A DNA stretch of 64,000 bases from Hansschlegelia quercus (GTDB lineage Bacteria; Pseudomonadota; Alphaproteobacteria; Rhizobiales; Methylopilaceae). Below, in pieces: positions 1,399 to 14,276 of the stretch; the first letter of the stretch is position 1; each line of letters starts with the position of its first letter. The position numbers were made by a program, and so were the translations under genes. The notes beneath the pieces were generated by a model that worked only from the letters and a program-made list of their open reading frames with translations, was not told the DNA's origin and did not search any database. The DNA is taken from positions 1-64,000 of the forward strand of contig NZ_SIUB01000005.1 of the NCBI RefSeq assembly GCF_004310425.1, read 5' to 3'.

Positions 1399-2031
1399 TC
1401 AGGTTCCGGAGATCGGACGCCATACGCCGCCCTCGGGCGCGAATTGCGGAATGTGGGCGAGGCTTCGGATCAGCGACGCGTCGGCCCCGAGCGCCTCCTC
1501 CCAGTCGTGCGCTTCGGTGAGGATCACCCCCGCCCCGACGACCTCGGCGCCCGCCCGCCGGCAAAGCGCGATCGCGCCGCCGAGGCTGCCGCCCGAGGCG
1601 ACGACGTCATCGACCACGACCACCCGCCTGCCCTCGAGCAGCGGCATGGCCTGCCTGTCCAGCAGCAGGCGCTGCTCGCCGGCCGAGGTGATGGACTGGA
1701 TCGTCTGGACCAGCGCGTCGCCGAGGTGGATCTTCGGCGACTTCTGCAGGATCACGTAATCATCGAGCCCGAGAGCGCGCGTGACCTCGATCGCGACCGG
1801 GATCCCGAGCGTGGCGGCCCCCACAACCACATCGGGCTTCAGCGGCGCGAGGCGCTCCGCGAGCCGCTCGCCGCAATGCGCGCCGAAGCGCACGCCGAGA
1901 TCGATCACCATCATCAGCGAGATCGCGAAATCCGGCTTGATCGCGACGATCGGCAGATCGAGCCGCCAGCCGGCGACGTCGACGGGCCAGGTCTGACCGG
2001 TGAGCTTCGACACTTGTTCGGGAGCGGTCAT
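1399..2031 (-). CDS. Phosphoribosyltransferase linked to an ECF transporter
   Basis: Type I phosphoribosyltransferase of 210 aa, expected to couple a base to PRPP in the cytoplasm. The PRPP loop is plain: VVVVDDVVASGGS, about residues 125-137. The upstream segment VVVGAATLGIPVA fits the adenine/xanthine-type fold. ATG at 2031 has GGAGGA 3 bases upstream and overlaps the stop of the EcfT gene by 4 nt (ATGA). A much longer open frame reaches 2625 but lies inside the EcfT gene. Last gene of a four-gene ECF operon, so it probably traps the imported compound as a nucleotide. This is an inference: the base (purine, pyrimidine or another) cannot be read from the sequence. Confidence 0.85.
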   Translation of the reverse strand: MTAPEQVSKLTGQTWPVDVAGWRLDLPIVAIKPDFAISLMMVIDLGVRFGAHCGERLAERLAPLKPDVVVGAATLGIPVAIEVTRALGLDDYVILQKSPKIHLGDALVQTIQSITSAGEQRLLLDRQAMPLLEGRRVVVVDDVVASGGSLGGAIALCRRAGAEVVGAGVILTEAHDWEEALGADASLIRSLAHIPQFAPEGGVWRPISGT

Positions 2032-2693
2032 TTGTCCTCCGGGATGCGATCGTCGACGAAAAGGCCCACGCGCCGCCACGTCGTGCGCTTGACGGATGGA
2101 TCGAAGCCCGACGTCGCGAACGAAACCGAGATCGCATGGGCCATGCGCACGGCCTGCACCAGGAGCGGAACGCCGCGGGCGAGCGCATAGCGCAGCTTCA
2201 CGTGGATCGGCGCGCGGTCGATCTCGAGGCCACGGGCGCGCTGGGCGTCGGCGATGCGCTCGAACTCCTCGCGCAGCATGGGCACCAATCCGAAGGTCAG
2301 CGACAAAGCGAGCGTCGCCATCGCTGGCAGCCGCGCGGCGCTCGCCGCCGCCATGATGGCGCCTGGCGTCGAGGTCTCCATCACGAAGAAGAACGCGCCC
2401 GTGGTCGCCACCAGCCGCGCAGCCATCCGGATCGCGATCGGCAGAGCTTCGCCGAGCGCCATCCCCTGGATCGAGAGGTTCAGCAGCCAGGAGGCGACGA
2501 CCAGCGCGACGAGGATGAGCGCGCCCTTGAGATAGGCCCTCAATCCCGGAGTGCGCGTCACAGCGAGCCCCGCGATGACGAGCCCCGCGGCGAGCGCGCT
2601 CCAGTACGGCCCTGGCGCGGCCCACGCGAGCGCCATCACCAAAGTCGCGCCGGCGAGCTTCACGAAGAAGTTGAGGCGATGGGCTGCGCTCAT
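2028..2693 (-). CDS. ECF transporter transmembrane protein (EcfT/CbiQ family)
   Basis: Membrane scaffold of an energy-coupling-factor importer, 221 aa, linking the substrate-binding S protein to the ATPase. Four to five hydrophobic segments lie in the first 130 residues and the coupling region follows. The first coupling motif is intact (AQRARGLEI). Where a second A-R-G motif usually sits the sequence is FATSGFDP, so the Arg is missing. ATG at 2693 overlaps the ATPase stop by 4 nt and the stop overlaps the phosphoribosyltransferase start by 4 nt, so all three are translationally coupled. A start at 2759 would run into the ATPase gene. Confidence 0.88.
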   Translation of the reverse strand: MSAAHRLNFFVKLAGATLVMALAWAAPGPYWSALAAGLVIAGLAVTRTPGLRAYLKGALILVALVVASWLLNLSIQGMALGEALPIAIRMAARLVATTGAFFFVMETSTPGAIMAAASAARLPAMATLALSLTFGLVPMLREEFERIADAQRARGLEIDRAPIHVKLRYALARGVPLLVQAVRMAHAISVSFATSGFDPSVKRTTWRRVGLFVDDRIPEDK

Positions 2694-4216
2694 GCCGCGC
2701 GCGCCTCCTGCGCGTAAGGCTTCGGCCAGCCGAGCGCCTCGAAGGCGCCCGAGTCCCAAACCGCCCCAGTCGGGCCGTCGAAGGCGAGCCGTCCGTCGGC
2801 CAGAACCATCGCGCGGGCGCAGACGTCGTCGACGAGCTCGAGATCGTGGGAGATGAGGATGACCGCCCTTCCCTGCGCCTCGCTCGCGTCGAGGAAGCGG
2901 CCGAGCAGCGCCCTCCCCGCGCGGTCGCGCGCGATCAGAGGCTCGTCGAGGATCGCGACGGCGCAGCCCCCCGCCTCGACGCAGGCGAGGCCGAGAAGCC
3001 CCTGCTCACGCGCCGACAACGCGAAGGGGTTGACCTCGGCCTTGTCCGCCAGCCCGTAAGGTTCCAGCGCGGCGAGCGCCTCCGCGCGGATCACAGGATC
3101 CGCGACGCGGCGCGTATCGGTCGCCATCGCGAAGACGACCTCCTCCAGCACCGTCATGTTGAACAGCACGCGGCGCATGTTCTGCGGGAGATAGCCGATG
3201 CGGCGTGCGCGCTGGGCCGGGCTCCAGGAGGCCGCGTCGGCGTCGTCGAGCGCGACCGAGCCGGCGGCGGCCTTGAGCAGGCCGAGCAGGGTCTGGAACA
3301 GCGTCGTCTTGCCGGCGCCGTTCGCCCCGACAAGGCCCACGATCTCGCCTGCTGAAAGCGCGAACGAGACATCCTGCAGCACGGGCGCTCCGCCCGGCCG
3401 GACGAGGCTCGAGCGCAATCCGGAGACGGCTAGCCGCGTCGGACCGACTGCGCCCGGCCGGCGCCGGCGCAGCGCTTCTCCCGGCGCGATGACGCCTGCG
3501 GTTCTCCAGATCTCGTTGTTCCGCGCAGCGTCTGAGATCGATGTCTGGCCGACCAGCCTTCCGCCCGCGAGAAACAGCGCGCGTTCCGTCACCTGCGCGA
3601 GCGAGGCGGCGTCCTGCTCGGCGATCAGCATCGTGCAACCGGGCCGCGCCGCGCGGGCCTCCCCGAGCGCGGATGCGAGGCGGCCACGAGCCTGCGGATC
3701 GAGGCCGGTGGTGGGCTCGTCAAGAACGAGCAGATCGGGCTCTGCGGCGAACGCCGCTGCGAGCGCGACCATGCGGCGTTCGCCCCCGGAGAGCGTCAGC
3801 GCCTGGCGGCCGGCAAGCCGCCGGATGCCGAACCGGTCGATTACTTTCGACACCTCCCGGCGAACCTCATCGCGCGGGGTGCGCCGGTTCTCCAGCGGGA
3901 ACGCGATCATATCCTCGACCGAGAGGTTCCAGAGCTGGTCGTCGAGGTTCTGGAACACGAAGCCGACGGCCGAGAAAAGCTCGGGCGTCGGCCATTCGCG
4001 CATAAGCCTGCCGCCGAGCCGGATCTCGCCCGAAAACTCCTGCGCGCGGACGAGGCGCGGCACGATCCCGCCCGCGGCTGCGAGCAGGGTCGACTTGCCG
4101 GCCCCGCCGGCGCCGCAGATGACCGCCGCCTCGCCCGGCGCAAGCCTGAACGAGACGTCGGCCACCGCAGGCTCCGGCGCGCCGAAACCGACGGTGAGAC
4201 TGTCGAGAACGAGCAT
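2690..4216 (-). CDS. ECF transporter ATPase, two ABC domains fused
   Basis: 508-aa cytoplasmic ATPase that carries both nucleotide-binding halves of an ECF transporter in one chain (EcfA1-EcfA2 equivalents). Domain 1: Walker A GAGGAGKST near residue 36, signature LSGGE, Walker B LLVLDEPTTGLD. Domain 2: Walker A GANGAGKTT near 300, Walker B VAILDEP, but the signature reads LSAREQ instead of LSGGQ. One of the two composite ATP sites therefore looks degenerate, as in several fused ABC proteins. It lies 16 nt after the S component and overlaps EcfT by 4 nt. A dedicated ATPase marks this as a group I-type ECF system with its own energising module. Confidence 0.92.
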   Translation of the reverse strand: MLVLDSLTVGFGAPEPAVADVSFRLAPGEAAVICGAGGAGKSTLLAAAGGIVPRLVRAQEFSGEIRLGGRLMREWPTPELFSAVGFVFQNLDDQLWNLSVEDMIAFPLENRRTPRDEVRREVSKVIDRFGIRRLAGRQALTLSGGERRMVALAAAFAAEPDLLVLDEPTTGLDPQARGRLASALGEARAARPGCTMLIAEQDAASLAQVTERALFLAGGRLVGQTSISDAARNNEIWRTAGVIAPGEALRRRRPGAVGPTRLAVSGLRSSLVRPGGAPVLQDVSFALSAGEIVGLVGANGAGKTTLFQTLLGLLKAAAGSVALDDADAASWSPAQRARRIGYLPQNMRRVLFNMTVLEEVVFAMATDTRRVADPVIRAEALAALEPYGLADKAEVNPFALSAREQGLLGLACVEAGGCAVAILDEPLIARDRAGRALLGRFLDASEAQGRAVILISHDLELVDDVCARAMVLADGRLAFDGPTGAVWDSGAFEALGWPKPYAQEARAA

Positions 4217-4232
4217 GCGTTACGGCGGCCCT

Positions 4233-4802
4233 TCAGAAGCGCGAGACACCGCCGGCATGCGCGCTCTTCAGGATTTTCAGCGCGGGCAGCAGGAGCAGCG
4301 GCGTGCCCAGCACCATCGGCACGATGTCGGACAGGCCGAGATAGCCGACGGCCCACCAGAACGGGAAGATGCCGAGATAAGCGAGGCTCGCCGAGACCGC
4401 GACGACCATGACGAGGCCGACGACGGCGCAGACCAGCGCGATCTTGATCAGCGCCTTCCTATCCGTGGCGTCGCGCGCCGGGTTGAACAGCAGGCCGGGA
4501 ACGAACCCCGTCAGCCCGACCATGATTCCGTCGACGATTAGCGAGTGGAACGGAATGAAGGTCCCCGCCAGCAGCGACCATAGGACCGTGCCCAGATAGC
4601 CGCAGATGAACCCGCTCTTCGGACCGAGCAGGATGCCGACCAGAGGCGGCAGGAAGGCGAAGATGCGCCACTGGATGACGCCGGGCACGAGCTGGATCGG
4701 GTTCGCGTAGGCCCAAAGCACGCCCGTCGCGGCGGCCGCCACCAGAGAGAGAATGATCGGAAAGAGCGGGTTGCCCTCCGTCTCGTGCGTCGTCGAACTC
4801 AT
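4233..4802 (-). CDS. ECF transporter S component (substrate-binding membrane protein)
   Basis: 189-aa integral membrane protein with about five to six hydrophobic helices (near residues 10-30, 38-55, 60-85, 95-112, 130-152, 155-178), the size of ECF S components. It heads the operon S-ATPase-EcfT-phosphoribosyltransferase. ATG at 4802 is preceded by GGAGG with 9 bases between. The upstream in-frame ATG at 4943 would add a basic tail without family features. Substrate specificity cannot be read from the sequence; the downstream phosphoribosyltransferase suggests a nucleobase or a related ring compound (inference). Confidence 0.82.
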   Translation of the reverse strand: MSSTTHETEGNPLFPIILSLVAAAATGVLWAYANPIQLVPGVIQWRIFAFLPPLVGILLGPKSGFICGYLGTVLWSLLAGTFIPFHSLIVDGIMVGLTGFVPGLLFNPARDATDRKALIKIALVCAVVGLVMVVAVSASLAYLGIFPFWWAVGYLGLSDIVPMVLGTPLLLLPALKILKSAHAGGVSRF

Positions 4803-4965
4803 AGCGTTACGCCTCCACTTCGTCGGCGACGCGAAGCAAGCCTCAGGCCATTGCCGGCGTTTCCTGCGCGCGGCGAGATGACTGGCGGATGACGTGCCTC
4901 TGAGGGCGGCAAGATTTCGGGTGATGCACGATATCGGGCACATCGCGGACGAACCAGTCGCAGGA

Positions 4966-5029
4966 GCGCCGGGTTCCTTTCTCCGTGCGATGGACGCTTT
5001 TGCGTCGTCTCAGGCGCCGCCCCCGGCGC
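4966..5029 (-). promoter_or_regulatory. Potential structured leader RNA upstream of the ECF operon
   Basis: Read on the minus strand, GCGCCGGG (5029-5022) can pair with CCCGGCGC (4973-4966), enclosing a perfect hairpin GACGC-AAAA-GCGTC (5006-4993). The strands between the two helices are unequal: about 15 nt on the 5' side and 19 nt on the 3' side. It lies about 160 nt before the S-component ATG in a 446-nt stretch without a convincing gene. This resembles a ligand-binding leader, but I do not recognise a known riboswitch consensus. The pairing could be a product of high GC content. Confidence 0.35.
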
Positions 5030-5248
5030 GTGAGAGACGGAAAGCGACGGGGGCGACTAGACGACGTCGGGGCCCGGTGGGGGCAGACGACCCCGGATCG
5101 CCTTCTCGCCATACGCTGATACCGCGTTGACGGTTTGATAAGACGCGCCGACTTTGGCTTGTCGAGGAGATCTCGTTCTCGATAGAGCCAAAATCCTGGC
5201 GCACCGACCGCTTAGGCGGACGTCCAACCATCGTTCGCGGAAACGATA

Positions 5249-5578
5249 ATGCATTCTGAAAGAAGGCGTAGCACGGCCGCTCTCTATGCAGTGCCGCTCG
5301 TCGTCATCTGCTGGTCGGGGATCGCAGCCGCTCAAAATCTGCAGTCGAGCGACGCCTCGCATCCAGCGGCTTCCGAGATCGGAGGACCGGCGGTCGGTCT
5401 GCGGGGTTCTCTCGACGGAGCGCCTAGATCGACCGGGTCGATCTCCGCTACGGCTGAGGCTGACCATGAGGCGAGGCTCTCCGATCTCGAGCGAAAAGCT
5501 GAAGCCGCCAGCCGCATCTCGGATTTCAGCCTCCAATTTCCGCCGGAGCCGAAACGAGCCGCGCGCAAGCCGCGGTAG
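5249..5578 (+). CDS. Small exported hypothetical protein
   Basis: 109 aa. The N terminus reads as a signal peptide: basic ERRR, a hydrophobic stretch to about residue 25, then a likely cleavage at GIAAA-QN. The mature part is polar, Ala/Ser-rich, with a short charged helix-like segment (EADHEARLSDLERKAEA) and a basic C terminus. No domain is recognised. It stands alone between the ECF leader and a LysR gene. Longer frames on the other strand lack starts or family features, so this is the most plausible coding frame, but small size limits certainty. Confidence 0.5.
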   Translation: MHSERRRSTAALYAVPLVVICWSGIAAAQNLQSSDASHPAASEIGGPAVGLRGSLDGAPRSTGSISATAEADHEARLSDLERKAEAASRISDFSLQFPPEPKRAARKPR

Positions 5579-5723: not shown

Positions 5724-6617
5724 TCACGCGTCGATATAGGCGGCGAGTTCATGCGGCTCTCCCGTCGGGAAGGTGGCTCTGAGGTGGTCGAGGAACGCCG
5801 AGACGCGCGCGCTCAGCAAGCGGCGCGACGGGTAGAGGGTCCATAAGGCGATTTCCGGCGCATCCACATCGCCCCAATGCACAAGGGAGCCTGCCGCCAG
5901 GTCGTGGCTGACGAGCGAGATCGGGAGGCGCGCTGCTCCCACCCCCGCCCGAACCGCGTCACGAACCATCATCATCGATGATAGGCTGAGGACCGGATTG
6001 ATCGCGATGGTCGAACCTCCGGCCTGAGCCGTGATCTTCCATAGCTCCGAGCGCTCCACCGGACCGCGCACCACAGCGGGCGCGGGCGAACCGTCTCTTG
6101 GCCGCGTCAAAGCGGGGCTCGCCACCACCACCAATCGATCTCGCAGAAATGCGCGCCCGACGAGGGTCTCGTCCGGATCCGGATTCACGCGGATCACCAG
6201 GTCGTAGCCTTCCTCGATCATATCGACCGCTCGATCCTCGGTCGTGACCTCAAGGCGAACGTCTGGGAATTTCATGGCGAACCCGGCCGCCAGCTTGCCC
6301 ATCGCAGTCTGCGAAAACAGCAACGGCGCGCTGATCCGCAGGCGGCCGCGAGGGGTGTGTCCACCAGACGCAATCGCGGTTGCAGTCTCGTCGAGCTCGG
6401 CGAGCAGCGCTGCCGTCCGCTCATAGAGCGCGTGTCCTTCCTGAGTGAGCTTCAGCGCTCTCCCGCCTCGCTCGAACAATCGCAGGTCCAGATCCGCCTC
6501 GAGCTCCGCGACCCTTCGGGACAAGGTGGCCTTGGGCCGACCGGTGGCGCGAGCCGCGCGCCCGAGGCCTGCGTGGCGGGCGACCAGGTTGAAGTCTGCA
6601 AGGGCCAACAGGTCCAT
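5724..6617 (-). CDS. LysR-family transcriptional regulator
   Basis: 297 aa: winged helix-turn-helix in residues 1-60 (DFNLVARHAGLGRAARATGR followed by the recognition helix KATLSRRVAELE), then the LysR substrate domain from about residue 90. ATG at 6617 starts the HTH in the usual place; the ATG at 6719 would run through the promoter region of the neighbour. It is divergent from the NmrA-type reductase with about 100 nt between, the typical layout for a LysR protein controlling its neighbour. The effector is unknown. Confidence 0.9.
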   Translation of the reverse strand: MDLLALADFNLVARHAGLGRAARATGRPKATLSRRVAELEADLDLRLFERGGRALKLTQEGHALYERTAALLAELDETATAIASGGHTPRGRLRISAPLLFSQTAMGKLAAGFAMKFPDVRLEVTTEDRAVDMIEEGYDLVIRVNPDPDETLVGRAFLRDRLVVVASPALTRPRDGSPAPAVVRGPVERSELWKITAQAGGSTIAINPVLSLSSMMMVRDAVRAGVGAARLPISLVSHDLAAGSLVHWGDVDAPEIALWTLYPSRRLLSARVSAFLDHLRATFPTGEPHELAAYIDA

Positions 6618-6718
6618 GTGTTCCACCTGAGAGACGGTATGTCTAAATAGAACGGCTATCGGGCGGAATATGGATCTCTCATTCTCCTTGTGTCCACTGA
6701 GACCCACGGAGATTTCCA

Positions 6719-7597
6719 ATGACCATCCTCGTCACCGGCGCTACCGGCCGCGTCGGCCGCCATGTCGTCGATCAACTCGTCAAGCGCGGCGCGGCCGTGC
6801 GTGTGCTCACTCGCGACGCCTCGAAGGCCGACTTCCCCGCCGGCGTCAACGTCGCCCAGGGCGAACTGCTCGACATCGACTCTCTGCGCAGCGCTTTCGA
6901 CGGCGTCAGCACGCTGTTCCTGCTGAACGCGGTCACGGGCGACGAATTCACCCAGGCGATCATCGCTCTCAACGTCGCCCGTGAATCAGGCGTCGAGCGG
7001 GTCGTCTATCTATCGGTGATCCACGCCGACCGGTTCCCGAACGTGCCCCACTTCGCGGTGAAGTCGGGCGCGGAGCGGATGCTCGAGCAGATGGGCTTTA
7101 GCGCCACGATCCTGCGTCCGTCCTACTTCATCGACAACGAGGTCATGATCAAGGACGTCATCGTGAACCATGGCGTCTATCCGATGCCGATCGGTTTCAA
7201 AGGCGTCGCCATGGTCGACGCTCGAGACATCGCAGAAGTCGCGGCGATCGAGTTGATCCGTCGAGATGAGGCCGTGGGCAAACTGCCGATTGAGACCATC
7301 AACCTTGTCGGTCCGGACACCCTGACCGGCCCGGACGCGGCCGCGATCTGGTCGGACGTCCTCGGCCGCCCGATCGTGTACGGCGGCGATGATCCCACCG
7401 GCTTCGAGCAGAACATGGCCAGCTTCATGCCCAAGTGGATGGCCTACGAGATGCGGCTGATGGCCGAGCGCTATGTCAGCGACGGCATGATCCCGGACGA
7501 AGGCGACGTCGAGCGGCTGACCGAGATCCTGGGCCGTCCGCTGCGCTCCTACCGCGACTTCGCGACCCAACTCGCCGCCGCAGCCACGGAAGCCTGA
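6719..7597 (+). CDS. NAD(P)-binding protein, NmrA/atypical SDR family
   Basis: 292-aa Rossmann protein. The glycine-rich motif VTGATGRVGRHVV occupies residues 4-16, followed by an acidic or basic dinucleotide selector region and VVYLSVIHAD near residue 100. The YxxxK catalytic pair of classical short-chain dehydrogenases is not evident, which fits the NmrA-like atypical group that includes NADPH sensors and quinone reductases. GGAG lies 8 bases before the ATG. Probably regulated by the divergent LysR gene. Substrate unknown. Confidence 0.85.
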   Translation: MTILVTGATGRVGRHVVDQLVKRGAAVRVLTRDASKADFPAGVNVAQGELLDIDSLRSAFDGVSTLFLLNAVTGDEFTQAIIALNVARESGVERVVYLSVIHADRFPNVPHFAVKSGAERMLEQMGFSATILRPSYFIDNEVMIKDVIVNHGVYPMPIGFKGVAMVDARDIAEVAAIELIRRDEAVGKLPIETINLVGPDTLTGPDAAAIWSDVLGRPIVYGGDDPTGFEQNMASFMPKWMAYEMRLMAERYVSDGMIPDEGDVERLTEILGRPLRSYRDFATQLAAAATEA

Positions 7598-8495: not shown

Positions 8496-9434
8496 TCATT
8501 GTCCGAGCGCTAAAAGGTTGCGCGGGCCGCCGGCGGCCCGCAGCGTCGTCGTCACGCGTGCGGCGTCGAGGTAGATCAGCGAGACGGTGTCCTCGAACCA
8601 ATTCGCGACCGCCGCGTACTGGCCGTCCGGCGTGATCGCGACCCCTTCCGGGTAGCTCCCGACCCCTACGCGCGCCGTGACCTCAAGCGATACGGCGTCG
8701 ACGATTGCAACTGCGTCGTCGTGCTGGAGCGTGACGACGATGCGCCCGCCGTCCTTCGAGGCCGCCACGCCGTAGGGCATCTTGCCGATCGGGAGCCGCT
8801 TGAGTTCCTGTCCGCCGTCGACGTCGATAACGGATAGATCGCCGCTTTGGACGTTCGCGACGTAGAGCCGCGCGCCGTCGCCTGACAGCGCAAGGGCGAA
8901 CGGCGCCTTGCCGACGGCGATCCGGCTGATTTCAGCGCCCGCCATGAGGTCGATGACGCTGACCGCATTGCTTTCGCGGGCGGCCACATAGGCCCGACGT
9001 CCGTCACGGCTGAGGACGATCGCAGCCGGGGATTTGCCGGTCGGGATTTCGCCGAGCGTCGCGCCCGTCAAAACGTCGATCTTCAGCACCAGGCTGCGGG
9101 TCCAGTCGGTGACGTAGAGGAACTCGTCGGTCGCGGCGGCGCCGAACGGCTGTCCCTTGACGGAGAAGGAGGCCGTGGTCCGCTTCGTCACGGCGTCGAG
9201 CACCGTGACGCGGCCGCGGTCGGGATGGGTGACGTAGAGCGTGCGCCCGTCCGAGCCGACTGCGACGCCCGCTGGAAGCTCGGCGACCTCGATGGCTTCG
9301 GGCTTATTCTCGCCGAGCGGCAACAGCCGGACCACGTTTCCGGTCTGCCCGACGACCGCGAGCAACGGCTCGTCGGCGTGAGCGCAGAATGGAGCCGAAA
9401 GGGCGGCGAGGAGGACAAGGGCGCGGAGCGTCAT
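8496..9434 (-). CDS. mxaE: YVTN-type beta-propeller protein, MxaE by position
   Basis: 312 aa with signal peptide (cleavage near AHA-DE, residue 21) and about seven repeats of the type PxGVAVSxDGxxLYVT / VSVIDLxxGxExxRI, giving a predicted seven-bladed periplasmic propeller. The start overlaps the mxaD stop by 4 nt. Position between mxaD and the presumed mxaH matches mxaE in the methylotroph cluster. Such propellers often accompany PQQ/cytochrome systems; a role in methanol dehydrogenase assembly is inferred. Confidence 0.7.
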   Translation of the reverse strand: MTLRALVLLAALSAPFCAHADEPLLAVVGQTGNVVRLLPLGENKPEAIEVAELPAGVAVGSDGRTLYVTHPDRGRVTVLDAVTKRTTASFSVKGQPFGAAATDEFLYVTDWTRSLVLKIDVLTGATLGEIPTGKSPAAIVLSRDGRRAYVAARESNAVSVIDLMAGAEISRIAVGKAPFALALSGDGARLYVANVQSGDLSVIDVDGGQELKRLPIGKMPYGVAASKDGGRIVVTLQHDDAVAIVDAVSLEVTARVGVGSYPEGVAITPDGQYAAVANWFEDTVSLIYLDAARVTTTLRAAGGPRNLLALGQ

Positions 9435-10929: not shown

Positions 10930-11483
10930 GGTAAGCCCCGGGGTCGCCCCGGAAGGTCGGTCCAGAGCTTCTTCGGTTGCGCCTTGGTTTCCTCCTCGGC
11001 CGTCTCGATCTCGGGGAAGTCGCGGACCAGCCGCATGACGACGTCGAGATTGTAGCGGGCGTCCCAAAGCGTTGGATCGGCCCTCAACGCGGCGCGGTAC
11101 GCCTCCTTGGCGAGGCGAACCTCAGGAATGGCCTTGTCGATCTGGCTCGCCTCGATCGCGCCGACTGCGCGCCGCGCGCGCGCGTTGCCGACGTCGTAGT
11201 GGAACCGTGCGGCGACCTCTGGTTCGCCGCGCTCCACGATCTGCCCGGCCAGCGACTGCGCCTCGTCGAGGCTGTCGCGCACGAGCAGGAAGTGAGCGCG
11301 GGCGAAGACGAGTTCGCCGCTCGCGTCGTCCGGCGGACGGACGTCGTGATTGGAAGCCAGGGCCTGGGCCACGGCGCGCTCGGACCGCTTGCCCTGCAGC
11401 GTCCAGGCCGACTGTGCGAGCCAGAGCGTCGTCGCGAGCAGCAGCAGCGGCGGAAGCACTGCTCTGATCCGGCCGAGACTCAT
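10926..11483 (-). CDS. mxaK: MxaK, methanol dehydrogenase maturation protein
   Basis: 185 aa: one N-terminal membrane helix (residues 10-28) and a tetratricopeptide-like region ending in the DARYNL motif, typical of BatB/BatC-associated TPR proteins. Required with MxaA and MxaL for calcium insertion into methanol dehydrogenase in Methylobacterium. Starts 4 nt inside mxaC and ends 4 nt inside mxaL. Confidence 0.9.
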   Translation of the reverse strand: MSLGRIRAVLPPLLLLATTLWLAQSAWTLQGKRSERAVAQALASNHDVRPPDDASGELVFARAHFLLVRDSLDEAQSLAGQIVERGEPEVAARFHYDVGNARARRAVGAIEASQIDKAIPEVRLAKEAYRAALRADPTLWDARYNLDVVMRLVRDFPEIETAEEETKAQPKKLWTDLPGRPRGLP

Positions 11484-12502
11484 GACGCGGTCCTCGCCGG
11501 CCGGGCGAGTTCGGGCTCATCGAGCCGCCGCTCCATCAGCTTCGCGCCGAGCAGCAGCGCCGTCGCGAAGGCGGCGACAAGATAGGCGATCCAGTCGAGG
11601 TTCTGTTGGGGAATGGTCTCCTTGTAGGCCGTCGGCCGCTGCTCGAGCTGGTCGATCTCGCGGATCGCCGCGGAGACGTCCGCGGCGCTCTTCGCCTCGA
11701 AAGCGCGGTAGGGTAGGCCTAGGCTTTTGAGAAACACGTCGAGGTGGCGCTCGGGATAGATCTGCGGCGTGTCCGGCTCGCCCGGAGGCGGCCGGTCGTA
11801 GATGCCCTTGGACCCCTGAGTTCGCAGGAACAGCCAGTAGAGCCTCACGGGATCGCGTCGCGCGGCGTCGCGAAGGGCGTCCTGCACACGCCGGTCTATT
11901 ACCGCGGCGCCGTCGGAGACGAGCACCAGCGCGCGTGAGGTTTCGCTCGACGTGTCGTCGAACATCGAGAAGGCGAGCGTTAGCCCGCGCCCGACATCGG
12001 TGTGCGCGAGCCCCGGCCGGTCGATCGCGGCGATTGCGGCGCTCACCGCATCATGATGATCGGTCATCGGCACGAGCGGCATCGGCGCGGTCGAGAATGC
12101 CGCGACGGCGACGCGGTCCGCCGGCCGGCGAGCCGCGAAATCCGTTAGGAGGCGCCGTGCCGCGACCGATTTGGACTCTTCCTTTCCTTCCGGCGAGCGG
12201 TTGGCAAAGGTCGAGTCCATGCTCGACGACCGATCGATCAGCAGCACGACATTGGCGCCCGCCCCGCGCCGCTCCACCGCCTGATCGCGGCGGTGGAGTC
12301 CGGACAAACCGAGCACGAGCGCCGCGATTGCCAGCGCGCCGAGGCAGGACAGGGCGACGCCGATCGCGGCTGAAAGCGCATCCTCCGGCACGACTGCGCT
12401 CGACGGCACGGCAGAGAGCCGCAGTGGCGAGGCTAAGAACGGCAGCGCCGCCAGCGGCAGCAGCAGAAGCGCCAGGGGATGGTCGAAGCCGATGGCGTTC
12501 AC
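11480..12502 (-). CDS. mxaC: MxaC, von Willebrand factor A domain membrane protein
   Basis: 340 aa from the GTG at 12502, coupled to mxaA by a 4-nt overlap. Layout: two N-terminal helices (LALLLLPLAALPFLA and a second near residues 50-70), VWA domain with a canonical MIDAS DRSSSM near residue 90 and TDVGRG / VLVSDG elements, then a C-terminal helix (WIAYLVAAFATALLLGA). Part of the MoxR-VWA chaperone module for methanol dehydrogenase maturation. A longer frame to 12829 overlaps mxaA and is ignored. Confidence 0.9.
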   Translation of the reverse strand: MNAIGFDHPLALLLLPLAALPFLASPLRLSAVPSSAVVPEDALSAAIGVALSCLGALAIAALVLGLSGLHRRDQAVERRGAGANVVLLIDRSSSMDSTFANRSPEGKEESKSVAARRLLTDFAARRPADRVAVAAFSTAPMPLVPMTDHHDAVSAAIAAIDRPGLAHTDVGRGLTLAFSMFDDTSSETSRALVLVSDGAAVIDRRVQDALRDAARRDPVRLYWLFLRTQGSKGIYDRPPPGEPDTPQIYPERHLDVFLKSLGLPYRAFEAKSAADVSAAIREIDQLEQRPTAYKETIPQQNLDWIAYLVAAFATALLLGAKLMERRLDEPELARPARTAS

Positions 12503-13401
12503 GCGGCCCGCTCCGCAGCCGCGAGATTTCTGGCAAGCCGCTTCAGGTCTTCGGCGGGCAGGGCGACGCGCCCGCCGCCGAAGAACGCCGCGCGTGAGGC
12601 GTCGAAGAAGGCCTTTATCGACGCTTCGTAGGAGCGGAACGCCGGCCGCGCCGACAGAAAGGCGCCGAGATCGTCGCCGAGCAGCCGCTTGCCGGCCGAG
12701 ATGTCGAAGGCCCGGTGAAGCGCGAGAGCAGCTGCCCGCCATCCGTCTTCGCCGGACCGCGCGACCTTCGCGACGGCGCGGGCGGCTTGCGCAAAGGGCC
12801 TCGAAGGCCTGCGGTGGAACGGCGGCCAAGCCCGGCTCCAGGCGAGCAGCAGCAGCGCGAGCAAGGTCGCGCCGAGGGCGACGCCGGTCTGGATCTCGGC
12901 TGGCCGAAGGCTTTTGGCGATCGGCGCCGCGTCCGGCTGCAGCGCGAAGGCGGTCGCGCCGCCGCCAGCCGTCGCGACGATCGGCCGGAGCGGCGAAGTC
13001 AGATAGGTCCAGCTCGCGCTCTTGGCCTCGACACGTTCGCCGGAGGCGCCAACCACCGCGAGCGTAAACGGCGGAACCGTCTGCTCGATCGCTTCGAGCG
13101 CCGCATAGAAGGTCTGGTATTCCGCCGCCATTTCGTAGCGGGTCGCCCCGTCCGGCCCCGAGCGCTCGTCGACTTTCAGGCTTCGGAGATCAAGCGAATA
13201 GGTCACGGGACCGGGCTTCGGCAGCGCCGCTGGATCGAGCTTGAAGGGTTTCGCGACGTCGAACTGGGTCGTCAGGGTGAAGACGTCGCCGAGCAGTAGT
13301 CCGAACGGCCGAGGGCCGGACATCTGCAGTCCGCTCACCTGAGCGGCGGCGGGATGGACTAACGCGACCAGCGCCGTCGCCGCGAGCAGGACGCGCATCA
13401 A
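12499..13401 (-). CDS. mxaA: MxaA, methanol dehydrogenase maturation protein
   Basis: 300 aa. Signal peptide (residues 1-20, AAA-QV), a periplasmic beta-rich part, one membrane helix at about residues 175-195 (GVALGATLLALLLLAW) and a cytoplasmic C-terminal domain of about 100 residues. MxaA homologues are needed for calcium insertion into MxaF. Coupled at both ends by 4-nt overlaps. Confidence 0.9.
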   Translation of the reverse strand: MMRVLLAATALVALVHPAAAQVSGLQMSGPRPFGLLLGDVFTLTTQFDVAKPFKLDPAALPKPGPVTYSLDLRSLKVDERSGPDGATRYEMAAEYQTFYAALEAIEQTVPPFTLAVVGASGERVEAKSASWTYLTSPLRPIVATAGGGATAFALQPDAAPIAKSLRPAEIQTGVALGATLLALLLLAWSRAWPPFHRRPSRPFAQAARAVAKVARSGEDGWRAAALALHRAFDISAGKRLLGDDLGAFLSARPAFRSYEASIKAFFDASRAAFFGGGRVALPAEDLKRLARNLAAAERAA

Positions 13402-14276
13402 ACGCCCCCCGACAGGAGGTGGTCAGCGAAGGCGTCGGCGTCGAAGCGGTCGACCAGATCGAATGCTGGGCGGCCGTGGCGTCGGAAGACACGATCGAGC
13501 GCGGCGCGGCGAGCGCGCGCGTCCGCGAGCCATTTTTCGCGCAGCGAGCGGCGCATCACGACGAGGCGCCTCCGCCCCGTCTCTAAGTCGCGAGTCTCGA
13601 TCAGGCCGAAGCGCGGCAGGCGCGTCTCGACCGCGCTCGATTGCGAGACGATCGGCGCGACGTCGTGGCGCCAGAGCCGGCCGAGCAGTTCGTCGACGTC
13701 CCCCTCGGGCATCAGGAAATCCGAGACCACGAAGACGAGCGATCGCCGCTGTGGCAGCTCATCCAGCGCCGCGATGAGACCGCCGACGCCCGCGCCTTGG
13801 CCGGAGTTCGCCGAGACCCGGCGCCAAACGTCTTCATCGACGCCCGCGCGGCGCGTAGCGCGAATCGCGAGGTCCGCGCGCTCGGTCGGCCCGGCCGCGA
13901 TCATCCCGAAGCGGTCCTGGCCTCTGACCGCGGCATGAGCGATCGCGCCGCAGAGCTCCGCCACAGCGTCGCCCGCCTCGCCGTCGCGGCCGAACGTCAT
14001 CGAGCCGGAAAGGTCGAGCACGACGAAGACGTCGATCCTGGCGCGGTTCTCGAAGCGGCGGACCTTCAGGCCACCGAATGGATCGGTGATCGAGGCGCGG
14101 ACGTCGATCCGCCGCGCATCCGAGGTCTCGAGGATCGAGGCATGGCGCAGGAAGGCGCCGTTGGCGCCTGCGCCGACCGCACGATGCGCGCCCGGCGCGA
14201 CGCCGCGCGCGCGGCCGAACAGCCGGTAGGGCAGGTCGACCCGAGGCGCGCCGTCCGGCGCGTGAGCAGGGTTCAC
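13398..14276 (-). CDS. mxaS: MxaS, DUF58/VWA-like protein
   Basis: 292 aa starting at a GTG that overlaps the mxaR stop by 4 nt. No signal peptide. A DUF58-type VWA domain carries DLSGSMTFG near residue 93 and VFVVSDFLMP near 185. DUF58 proteins pair with MoxR ATPases, and here the two are adjacent and coupled. Cytoplasmic partner in the methanol dehydrogenase maturation machinery. Confidence 0.9.
   Translation of the reverse strand: MNPAHAPDGAPRVDLPYRLFGRARGVAPGAHRAVGAGANGAFLRHASILETSDARRIDVRASITDPFGGLKVRRFENRARIDVFVVLDLSGSMTFGRDGEAGDAVAELCGAIAHAAVRGQDRFGMIAAGPTERADLAIRATRRAGVDEDVWRRVSANSGQGAGVGGLIAALDELPQRRSLVFVVSDFLMPEGDVDELLGRLWRHDVAPIVSQSSAVETRLPRFGLIETRDLETGRRRLVVMRRSLREKWLADARARRAALDRVFRRHGRPAFDLVDRFDADAFADHLLSGGV

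Follow-up and report, generated by a model that had tools for sequence, protein, structure and literature searches.

We analyzed a 64,000-nucleotide stretch of Hansschlegelia quercus DNA (hereafter the window; contig NZ_SIUB01000005.1 of assembly GCF_004310425.1, positions 1 to 64,000), in which a four-gene operon encodes a putative energy-coupling factor (ECF) importer together with a type I phosphoribosyltransferase (PRT). The open reading frames follow the order S component (S), ATPase, EcfT (T), and PRT, with a spacing of 16 nt between S and the ATPase and stop/start overlaps at the two following junctions (Table 1). These minus-strand frames bear out the initial annotation, which had described an operon with its own S component, fused ATPase, EcfT, and PRT, the last three being joined by 4-nt overlaps. 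The importer had also been called self-contained, and the EcfT of the operon is indeed the sole CbiQ/EcfT-family match in the host genome. The G+C content is 0.70 in the operon and 0.667 in the window.

Table 1 Features of the ECF–PRT operon in the window.
Feature	Positions	Strand	Description
S component	4233..4802	minus	189 aa; substrate-binding membrane subunit (predicted); six predicted helices; AlphaFold2 (AF2) mean predicted local distance difference test (pLDDT) 84.0
Fused energizing ATPase	2690..4216	minus	508 aa; two ATP-binding cassette (ABC) domains in one chain; two PF00005 stretches
EcfT transmembrane coupling subunit	2028..2693	minus	221 aa; CbiQ family; PF02361 49.3 bits, cut-off 25
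Type I PRT, adenine phosphoribosyltransferase 2 (APRT2)/xanthine phosphoribosyltransferase (XPRT)/PurR-like	1399..2031	minus	210 aa; PF00156 60.4 bits, cut-off 26.3
ATPase–EcfT stop/start overlap	2690..2693	minus	4 nt
EcfT–PRT stop/start overlap	2028..2031	minus	4 nt
S residues 26–46, TGVLWAYANPIQLVPGVIQWR, end of helix 1 and loop L1	4665..4727	minus	19/21 positions invariant in 36 aligned sequences
Phosphoribosyl pyrophosphate (PRPP)-binding motif of PRT, residues 137–149, VVVVDDVVASGGS	1585..1623	minus	VVVVDD-type loop
Degenerate second-domain ABC signature LSARE	3005..3019	minus	second-Gly position is Arg in 67/67 alphaproteobacterial ATPases
First-domain switch (H-loop), Gln for His	3614..3616	minus	Gln in 65 and Glu in 2 of 67 alphaproteobacterial ATPases
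Second EcfT coupling-helix motif region SFATSGFDP, without Arg	2097..2123	minus	Gly in 68/68 alphaproteobacterial copies; Arg in 4/4 cyanobacterial copies

The S component passes no Pfam or NCBIfam cut-off. Its two Pfam scores are 22.3 bits (cut-off 26.7) and 21.4 bits (cut-off 30.7), and it is therefore identified by fold and operon context. The AF2 model adopts the ECF S-component fold, and the top matches in a VIA search are all S components: 4hzu_S, which we take to be HmpT (Z 16.1, root-mean-square deviation (rmsd) 3.8, 161 residues aligned), ThiT (14.7, 3.2, 163), RibU (14.2, 3.4, 160), FolT (14.2, 3.3, 161), PanT (13.0, 3.9, 166), and BioY (12.4, 3.7, 170). The top non-S protein is Lnt at Z 9.9. 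These fold matches share 10–20% identity with the window S and do not separate S families. Foldseek E-values are weak (best 9.7e-3), and sequence search with S returned no PDB chain, the profile giving one chance-like match at E 1.2. The initial annotation had reckoned with S falling firmly into a known vitamin group. Judged by family models rather than by phylogeny, it does not: S reaches no NCBIfam vitamin-family cut-off (FolT TIGR04518, 20.1 of 60 bits; RibU-type PRK13661, 15.1 of 99), and the vitamin-family models give only weak matches among 36 S members. Seven residues (Q37, Q44, W45, R46, H86, D91, and D159) are invariant in the 36 aligned S proteins, and the conserved loop L1 is modeled with low confidence (pLDDT around 61 at residues 31–40). 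Helix 1 carries a small-x3-small (AxxxA-like) motif, with S/A at position 19, A/G at 23, and G at 27 (36/36), the role of which in helix 1 of ECF S components is treated in sections of PMC4820897. Two records name S a hypothetical protein and an aminotriazole resistance protein, the latter being the RefSeq name of the Rhizobium etli 8C-3 copy (locus L082, 7980–8552). Since literature searches turned up no bacterial source for the aminotriazole label, it was given no weight as a functional lead.

The protein encoded by the fourth gene is assigned to the type I PRTs by its Pribosyltran domain and PRPP loop, and D141 and D142 of this loop are invariant in 30/30 aligned sequences. The nearest solved sequences are Thermus thermophilus APRT2 5zgo (2.1e-21) and 6fsp (8.6e-21), followed by adenine phosphopsicosyltransferase 7f06 and the PRT-related protein 1vch. 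Similarly, the AF2 model (mean pLDDT 91.9) matches 7f06 (Z 23.2, rmsd 2.6, 179 aligned), 5zgo (21.9, 2.2, 177), 6fsp (20.9, 1.9, 169), XPRT 2fxv (20.6, 2.7, 179), and human APRT (19.8, 2.3, 167). By sequence and fold together, APRT2, XPRT, and PurR rank first and orotate PRTs lower. The window PRT and the T. thermophilus APRT2, which is PRK07322-like, share the fold, the PRPP motif, and, in the alignment, SIT[ST] where canonical APRTs have the EYGT region; in contrast, the window PRT is 33–34% identical, is linked to a transporter, and does not reach the PRK07322 cut-off (116 of 143 bits). The score against PRK06031 is also below the cut-off (107.4 of 175). The window PRT also has equivalents of the lysines found in the E. 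coli Apt KPGKLP region.

To define the distribution of the operon, an alignment of four S proteins was scanned against genome_contigs (84,980 species genomes) with two exact peptides as seed, which makes the counts lower bounds. At least 70 S loci were identified, by genus name chiefly in Hyphomicrobiales and also in Rhodobacterales, Inquilinus, and Geminicoccus, with five cyanobacterial loci; the S of one locus labeled Mycobacterium is nearly identical to the Inquilinus limosus protein. The occurrence of S is patchy. It was found in 4/297 genomes of the order sample, in 1/398 of the phylum sample (the host itself), in 6 of 72,556 plasmid records, and in none of the 9 other genomes of the genus in the order sample. 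Acquisition of the operon is suggested by this last absence alone.

Adding L010, L011, and the window gave 73 counted loci, the parts of which were called by tblastn with the window proteins. With A for ATPase and R for PRT, the orders were S-A-T-R (41), R-S-A-T-R (26), and S in two pieces ahead of A-T-R (1); the remaining five loci, all cyanobacterial, read S-T-R (3), S-T (1), and S only (1). Thus, the complete set is present in 68/73 loci, and a PRT match lies behind S in 71/73, the other two loci (cyanobacterial) having PRT pieces by profile search. Alphaproteobacteria and Cyanobacteria are the two lineages, in two phyla, with S–PRT linkage, and four of the five cyanobacterial loci carry an ATPase that falls in a separate cluster. 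The ATPase and T genes overlap in 68/68 measurable pairs (exactly 4 nt in 53), and T and PRT overlap or abut in 60/71 pairs; gene starts were chosen by script, so that single overlap values may be off (for example in L048). Because the same geometry recurs across the 73 loci, it is not a product of chance. In most alphaproteobacteria, identity to the window copy is about 74–83% for S, 67–79% for the PRT, 57–65% for T, and 48–55% for the ATPase, which makes S and the PRT the best-conserved parts of the operon. The S gene of Brucella oryzae (L076, 9995–10566) consists of two overlapping pieces, through a frameshift or a sequence error, and the ATPase match there is partial. The Brucella/Ochrobactrum-type loci (L036, L042–L044, L046, L050, and partly L060) share nearby aldehyde dehydrogenase, short-chain dehydrogenase/reductase, and peptide-type ABC genes and, on the opposite side, a cytidine-deaminase-like gene.

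The PRTs of these operons belong to two branches. A tree was built from 50 rows, among them the PDB relatives 5zgo, 7f06, and 1vch. In it, the three cyanobacterial operon PRTs stand apart from the alphaproteobacterial operon PRTs and group, with 100/100 support, with four distant alphaproteobacterial PRTs that lack S and include a PRK06031 member. The cyanobacterial operon PRT of L079 likewise passes PRK06031 (212.3 bits, cut-off 175), which the window PRT does not. A tree forcing all operon-type PRTs together was rejected at p-AU 0.0143, a value obtained where long branches meet and for a group picked after the first, unrooted tree. The two PRT branches with one S family could reflect PRT replacement or separate recruitment. 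Because the cyanobacterial operon PRTs belong to the other branch, S stays tied to PRT activity despite the differing PRT lineage. A second PRT, 53–62% identical to that of the window, lies upstream of S in 26/73 loci (for example L021, 8819–9532), and in each of these 26 loci a LysR gene, always of the same cluster, lies upstream in the opposite direction. A 27th operon-linked LysR gene occurs in L069, where an SLOG-cluster gene occupies the position of the second PRT. In L024, a SLOG/LOG-superfamily gene (PF18306 in a Pfam run on this copy; 8628–9230) lies between the opposed LysR gene and S; SLOG gene, second PRT, and operon stand together in this locus. The window has neither a second PRT nor a gene of the operon-linked LysR cluster; its LysR gene at 5724–6719, about 920 bases from S, falls outside that cluster and was rejected as regulator of the operon.

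PRT relatives without S were sought at E 1e-20 or better, with the 10 best first-look candidates per genome scored, which again gives lower bounds. Such a PRT is present in at least 19/297 genomes of the order sample. Seven reach at least 58% identity, four of them S-carrying and three without S, as judged by the genome S scan and by the 16 kb around the PRT. The class sample added one S-less relative among 385 genomes, with no S match within 17 kb, and the family samples added no further ones (1/28 and 1/20, both already known). Two of these four close S-less relatives adjoin nucleoside hydrolases and ABC importers: the L096 PRT has as neighbors a BMP/PnrA-type ABC importer together with an inosine-uridine nucleoside hydrolase, and the L100 PRT overlaps an NMT1-type binding protein, with ABC components, a dihydroorotate dehydrogenase (DHODH) gene, and a nucleoside hydrolase nearby. 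The distant relatives L101 and L103 have a nucleoside hydrolase and an adenine-deaminase-like gene, all below curated cut-offs. The four S-less PRTs are scattered in the first, unrooted tree (3 changes forced; shuffles give the same), so the partner transporter of the PRT may have changed more than once. L096 also holds a second, different ECF set (S, T, and ATPase; 11013–13748) about 2.4 kb from the PRT, adjoining a PCC-domain gene; the S of this set is near the CD3073 family (125.5 of 180 bits).

The more unexpected finding of the analysis is the asymmetry of the energizing module. The usual symmetric ECF module, with two complete ATP sites and an Arg at the ends of EcfT coupling helices 2 and 3, is not found in the alphaproteobacterial copies. 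The ATPase retains the first ABC signature, the Walker B glutamate of both domains, and the second switch His (67/67 each), and EcfT retains the Arg of its first XRX motif (68/68), whereas the second signature, the first switch His, and the Arg of the second coupling helix are lost (Table 1). Since the second signature is degenerate and the first switch His is lost, we predict weak or no activity at one composite ATP site. The position in the Q-loop of the second domain is Arg in 67/67 alphaproteobacterial and Asp in 4/4 cyanobacterial ATPases. In the cyanobacterial enzymes, the second signature also retains its second Gly (4/4); the first switch His (Pro in 2, Gln in 2) is the sole loss they share with the alphaproteobacterial ones. 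Sections of PMC4820897 describe conserved arginines of ECF coupling helices 2 and 3 that contact ATPase aspartates, and the aligned EcfT and ATPase positions, assigned by motif, would correspond to these contact residues.

Collectively, these features point to a dedicated ECF importer with PRPP-dependent trapping, the substrate of which would be a purine-type base and most likely adenine or a closely related 6-aminopurine, a reading to which we give a probability of roughly 0.58. Base import followed by PRPP-dependent capture, as the initial annotation had proposed, is the best-supported interpretation of the sequences, given the S–PRT linkage in two phyla, the two PRT branches, the salvage contexts of two of the four S-less relatives, and the adenine and purine PRTs that are the nearest solved relatives of the PRT. 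In the proposed mechanism, S would bind the base outside the cell, and base-loaded S would dock on EcfT. Turnover of the fused ATPase would then release the base inside, where the co-translated PRT would join it to PRPP, giving a nucleotide that is unable to leave and pulling uptake forward. We infer that the substrate of S is the acceptor of the PRT and that this acceptor is adenine-like. Seven host proteins match PF00156; one is the operon PRT, and the other six were judged by eye to be hpt, upp, pyrE, purF, comF, and a further protein. No second apt-like gene was found in the host: no apt passes the TIGR01090 cut-off, the top match being the operon PRT itself (34.5 bits), and one member of the xanthine/uracil permease family is present. 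The T. thermophilus APRT with published substrates is presumably the 6fsp protein. Its substrates are adenine, 2-chloroadenine, and allopurinol, as given in sections of PMC6317416.

Several observations weigh against this reading. The earlier proposal had depended on conserved base-binding residues in the PRT; the window PRT keeps the PRPP-binding motif, but the acidic motif EYGT of canonical APRTs such as E. coli Apt is absent. The residues by themselves therefore do not single out the base. Against the apt model TIGR01090, the PRT scores 34.7 bits with a cut-off of 185.85. Because the EYGT motif is missing and this cut-off is not reached, the designation adenine draws on relatives and elimination. 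The elimination is weakened by the strictness of TIGR01090, which 13/14 control genomes match and only 6 pass; moreover, none of the 13 genomes of the genus passes, most of them being without the operon as far as sampled. Two of the S-less relatives, L097 (with aldehyde dehydrogenase, GMC oxidoreductase, and MalK-type ABC genes) and L098 (with an aldo/keto reductase), do not lie in clear salvage loci. The record of guanine for T. thermophilus APRT is mixed, since sections of PMC6317416 call it a non-substrate and a table there gives 25.6% conversion. Finally, no purine riboswitch or other substrate-telling RNA was found with Rfam near S in 28 related loci or in the window. The 28 loci yielded eight matches at gathering score: three tRNAs, terC, two ar14 small RNAs (L030 and L032; opposite strand, about 220 bases upstream of S), a thiamine pyrophosphate (TPP) riboswitch, and, in L069, a cobalamin riboswitch at a distance of about 7 kb from S. 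The sole Rfam match in the window is a distant tRNA, and positions 4700–5400 gave no match at E up to 1. By eye, the 3' end of a tRNA gene lies at the window edge (positions 1–34); a genomic island at this tRNA end was rejected, as the 25-base end has no second copy in the window.

Among the alternatives, the one that survives best, unlikely as it is, holds that S imports a vitamin-like compound of the hydroxymethylpyrimidine, pyridoxamine, or thiamine type and that the PRT is base-sensing or regulatory or serves an adjacent pathway. It would suit the structural ranking of S, headed by 4hzu_S and then ThiT, and PurR is a precedent for PRT-fold regulators; the ranking, however, reflects fold alone at such low identity, and the PRT keeps its PRPP motif and has no DNA-binding domain in Pfam. 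Of the 28 loci, L056 alone has a TPP riboswitch, and there S is about 9.4 kb away. Import of a pyrimidine base (uracil, thymine, cytosine, or a catabolic relative) instead of a purine comes next and is also improbable. The ranking of the PRT relatives and the score of the UPRTase model (12.0 bits against a cut-off of 27) speak for a purine, and the host already has upp-like and pyrE-like genes by eye. In favor of a pyrimidine, DHODH and M20-type hydrolase genes lie close to the L100 PRT with its overlapping NMT1-type binding protein, and L101 and L103 have nucleoside hydrolases that match the RihC and RihA models below cut-off.

A modified adenine such as a cytokinin, with the PRT and a LOG-type enzyme interconverting base and nucleotide, would explain the SLOG/LOG-superfamily gene just upstream in L024 and the same-cluster gene in L069, and many host genera are plant-associated. 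The SLOG gene occurs in only two of the 73 loci, however, the operon is also found in marine Rhodobacterales and in cyanobacteria, and N6-benzyladenine was converted poorly by T. thermophilus APRT (1.87%; sections of PMC6317416), all of which makes this explanation quite doubtful. Equally speculative, if not more so, is a variant in which the PRT is a fifth part of the importer on the cytoplasmic EcfT/ATPase face, takes the base directly from S, and lets PRPP splitting partly drive uptake. Such nucleobase group translocation by an ABC-type machine would fit the tight S–PRT linkage and the half-degenerate ATPase. The bases that serve as queuosine precursors are used by tRNA-guanine transglycosylase, and no PRT is known to use them. 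An importer of these precursors is very improbable here: although 7-deazapurine bases are the substrates of the ECF S components QueT and QrtT (sections of PMC11130926 and PMC5372724), no queuosine gene was seen by eye among the 45 most recurrent neighbor clusters (first 70 residues viewed), no preQ1 riboswitch was found in the 28 loci, and 7-deazapurines are non-substrates of T. thermophilus APRT (sections of PMC6317416).

The proposed adenine-type importer can be set beside known systems. In ECF transporters such as BioMNY and CbiMNQO, a single operon encodes S, T, and ATPases. The window operon shares with them the S fold, the small-x3-small motif of helix 1, a CbiQ-family T, two ABC domains, and the single operon; it differs in the co-translated PRT as fourth gene, the fused ATPases, an unassigned S family, and the loss of the second ABC signature, the first switch His, and the second coupling-helix Arg. 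PurP or UraA with Apt or Upp represents a base permease plus a separate salvage PRT. Import with PRPP trapping, as proposed here, would be common to both, whereas uptake in the window system would be ATP-driven through an ECF machine rather than a proton symporter, and its genes are tightly linked. Rodionov et al. (2009) reportedly listed unassigned ECF families. ECF importers for queuosine precursors are described in parts of PMC11130926, PMC5372724, and PMC6593275; the window system would share with QueT/QrtT the import of a purine-like base and differs in being coupled to a PRT, with no queuosine gene or preQ1 riboswitch recognized near S. In the open PMC literature, as covered by titles and abstracts, no publication on a PRT-linked ECF transporter was found, and a term search for phosphoribosyl, purine, or nucleobase gave no match in PMC11109136, which deals with the S fold.

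If the proposed reading is true, ordinary nucleobases, a class that ECF importers are not known to carry, would join vitamins, metals, and queuosine precursors as ECF substrates, the operon would itself supply the trapping step, and a function would be offered for an S family annotated as hypothetical or as aminotriazole resistance protein. The lost coupling Arg of EcfT goes together with the acidic-to-Arg difference in the second ATPase domain, and this conserved asymmetry may serve as a natural test of the share that each ATP site and each coupling helix has in ECF transport.

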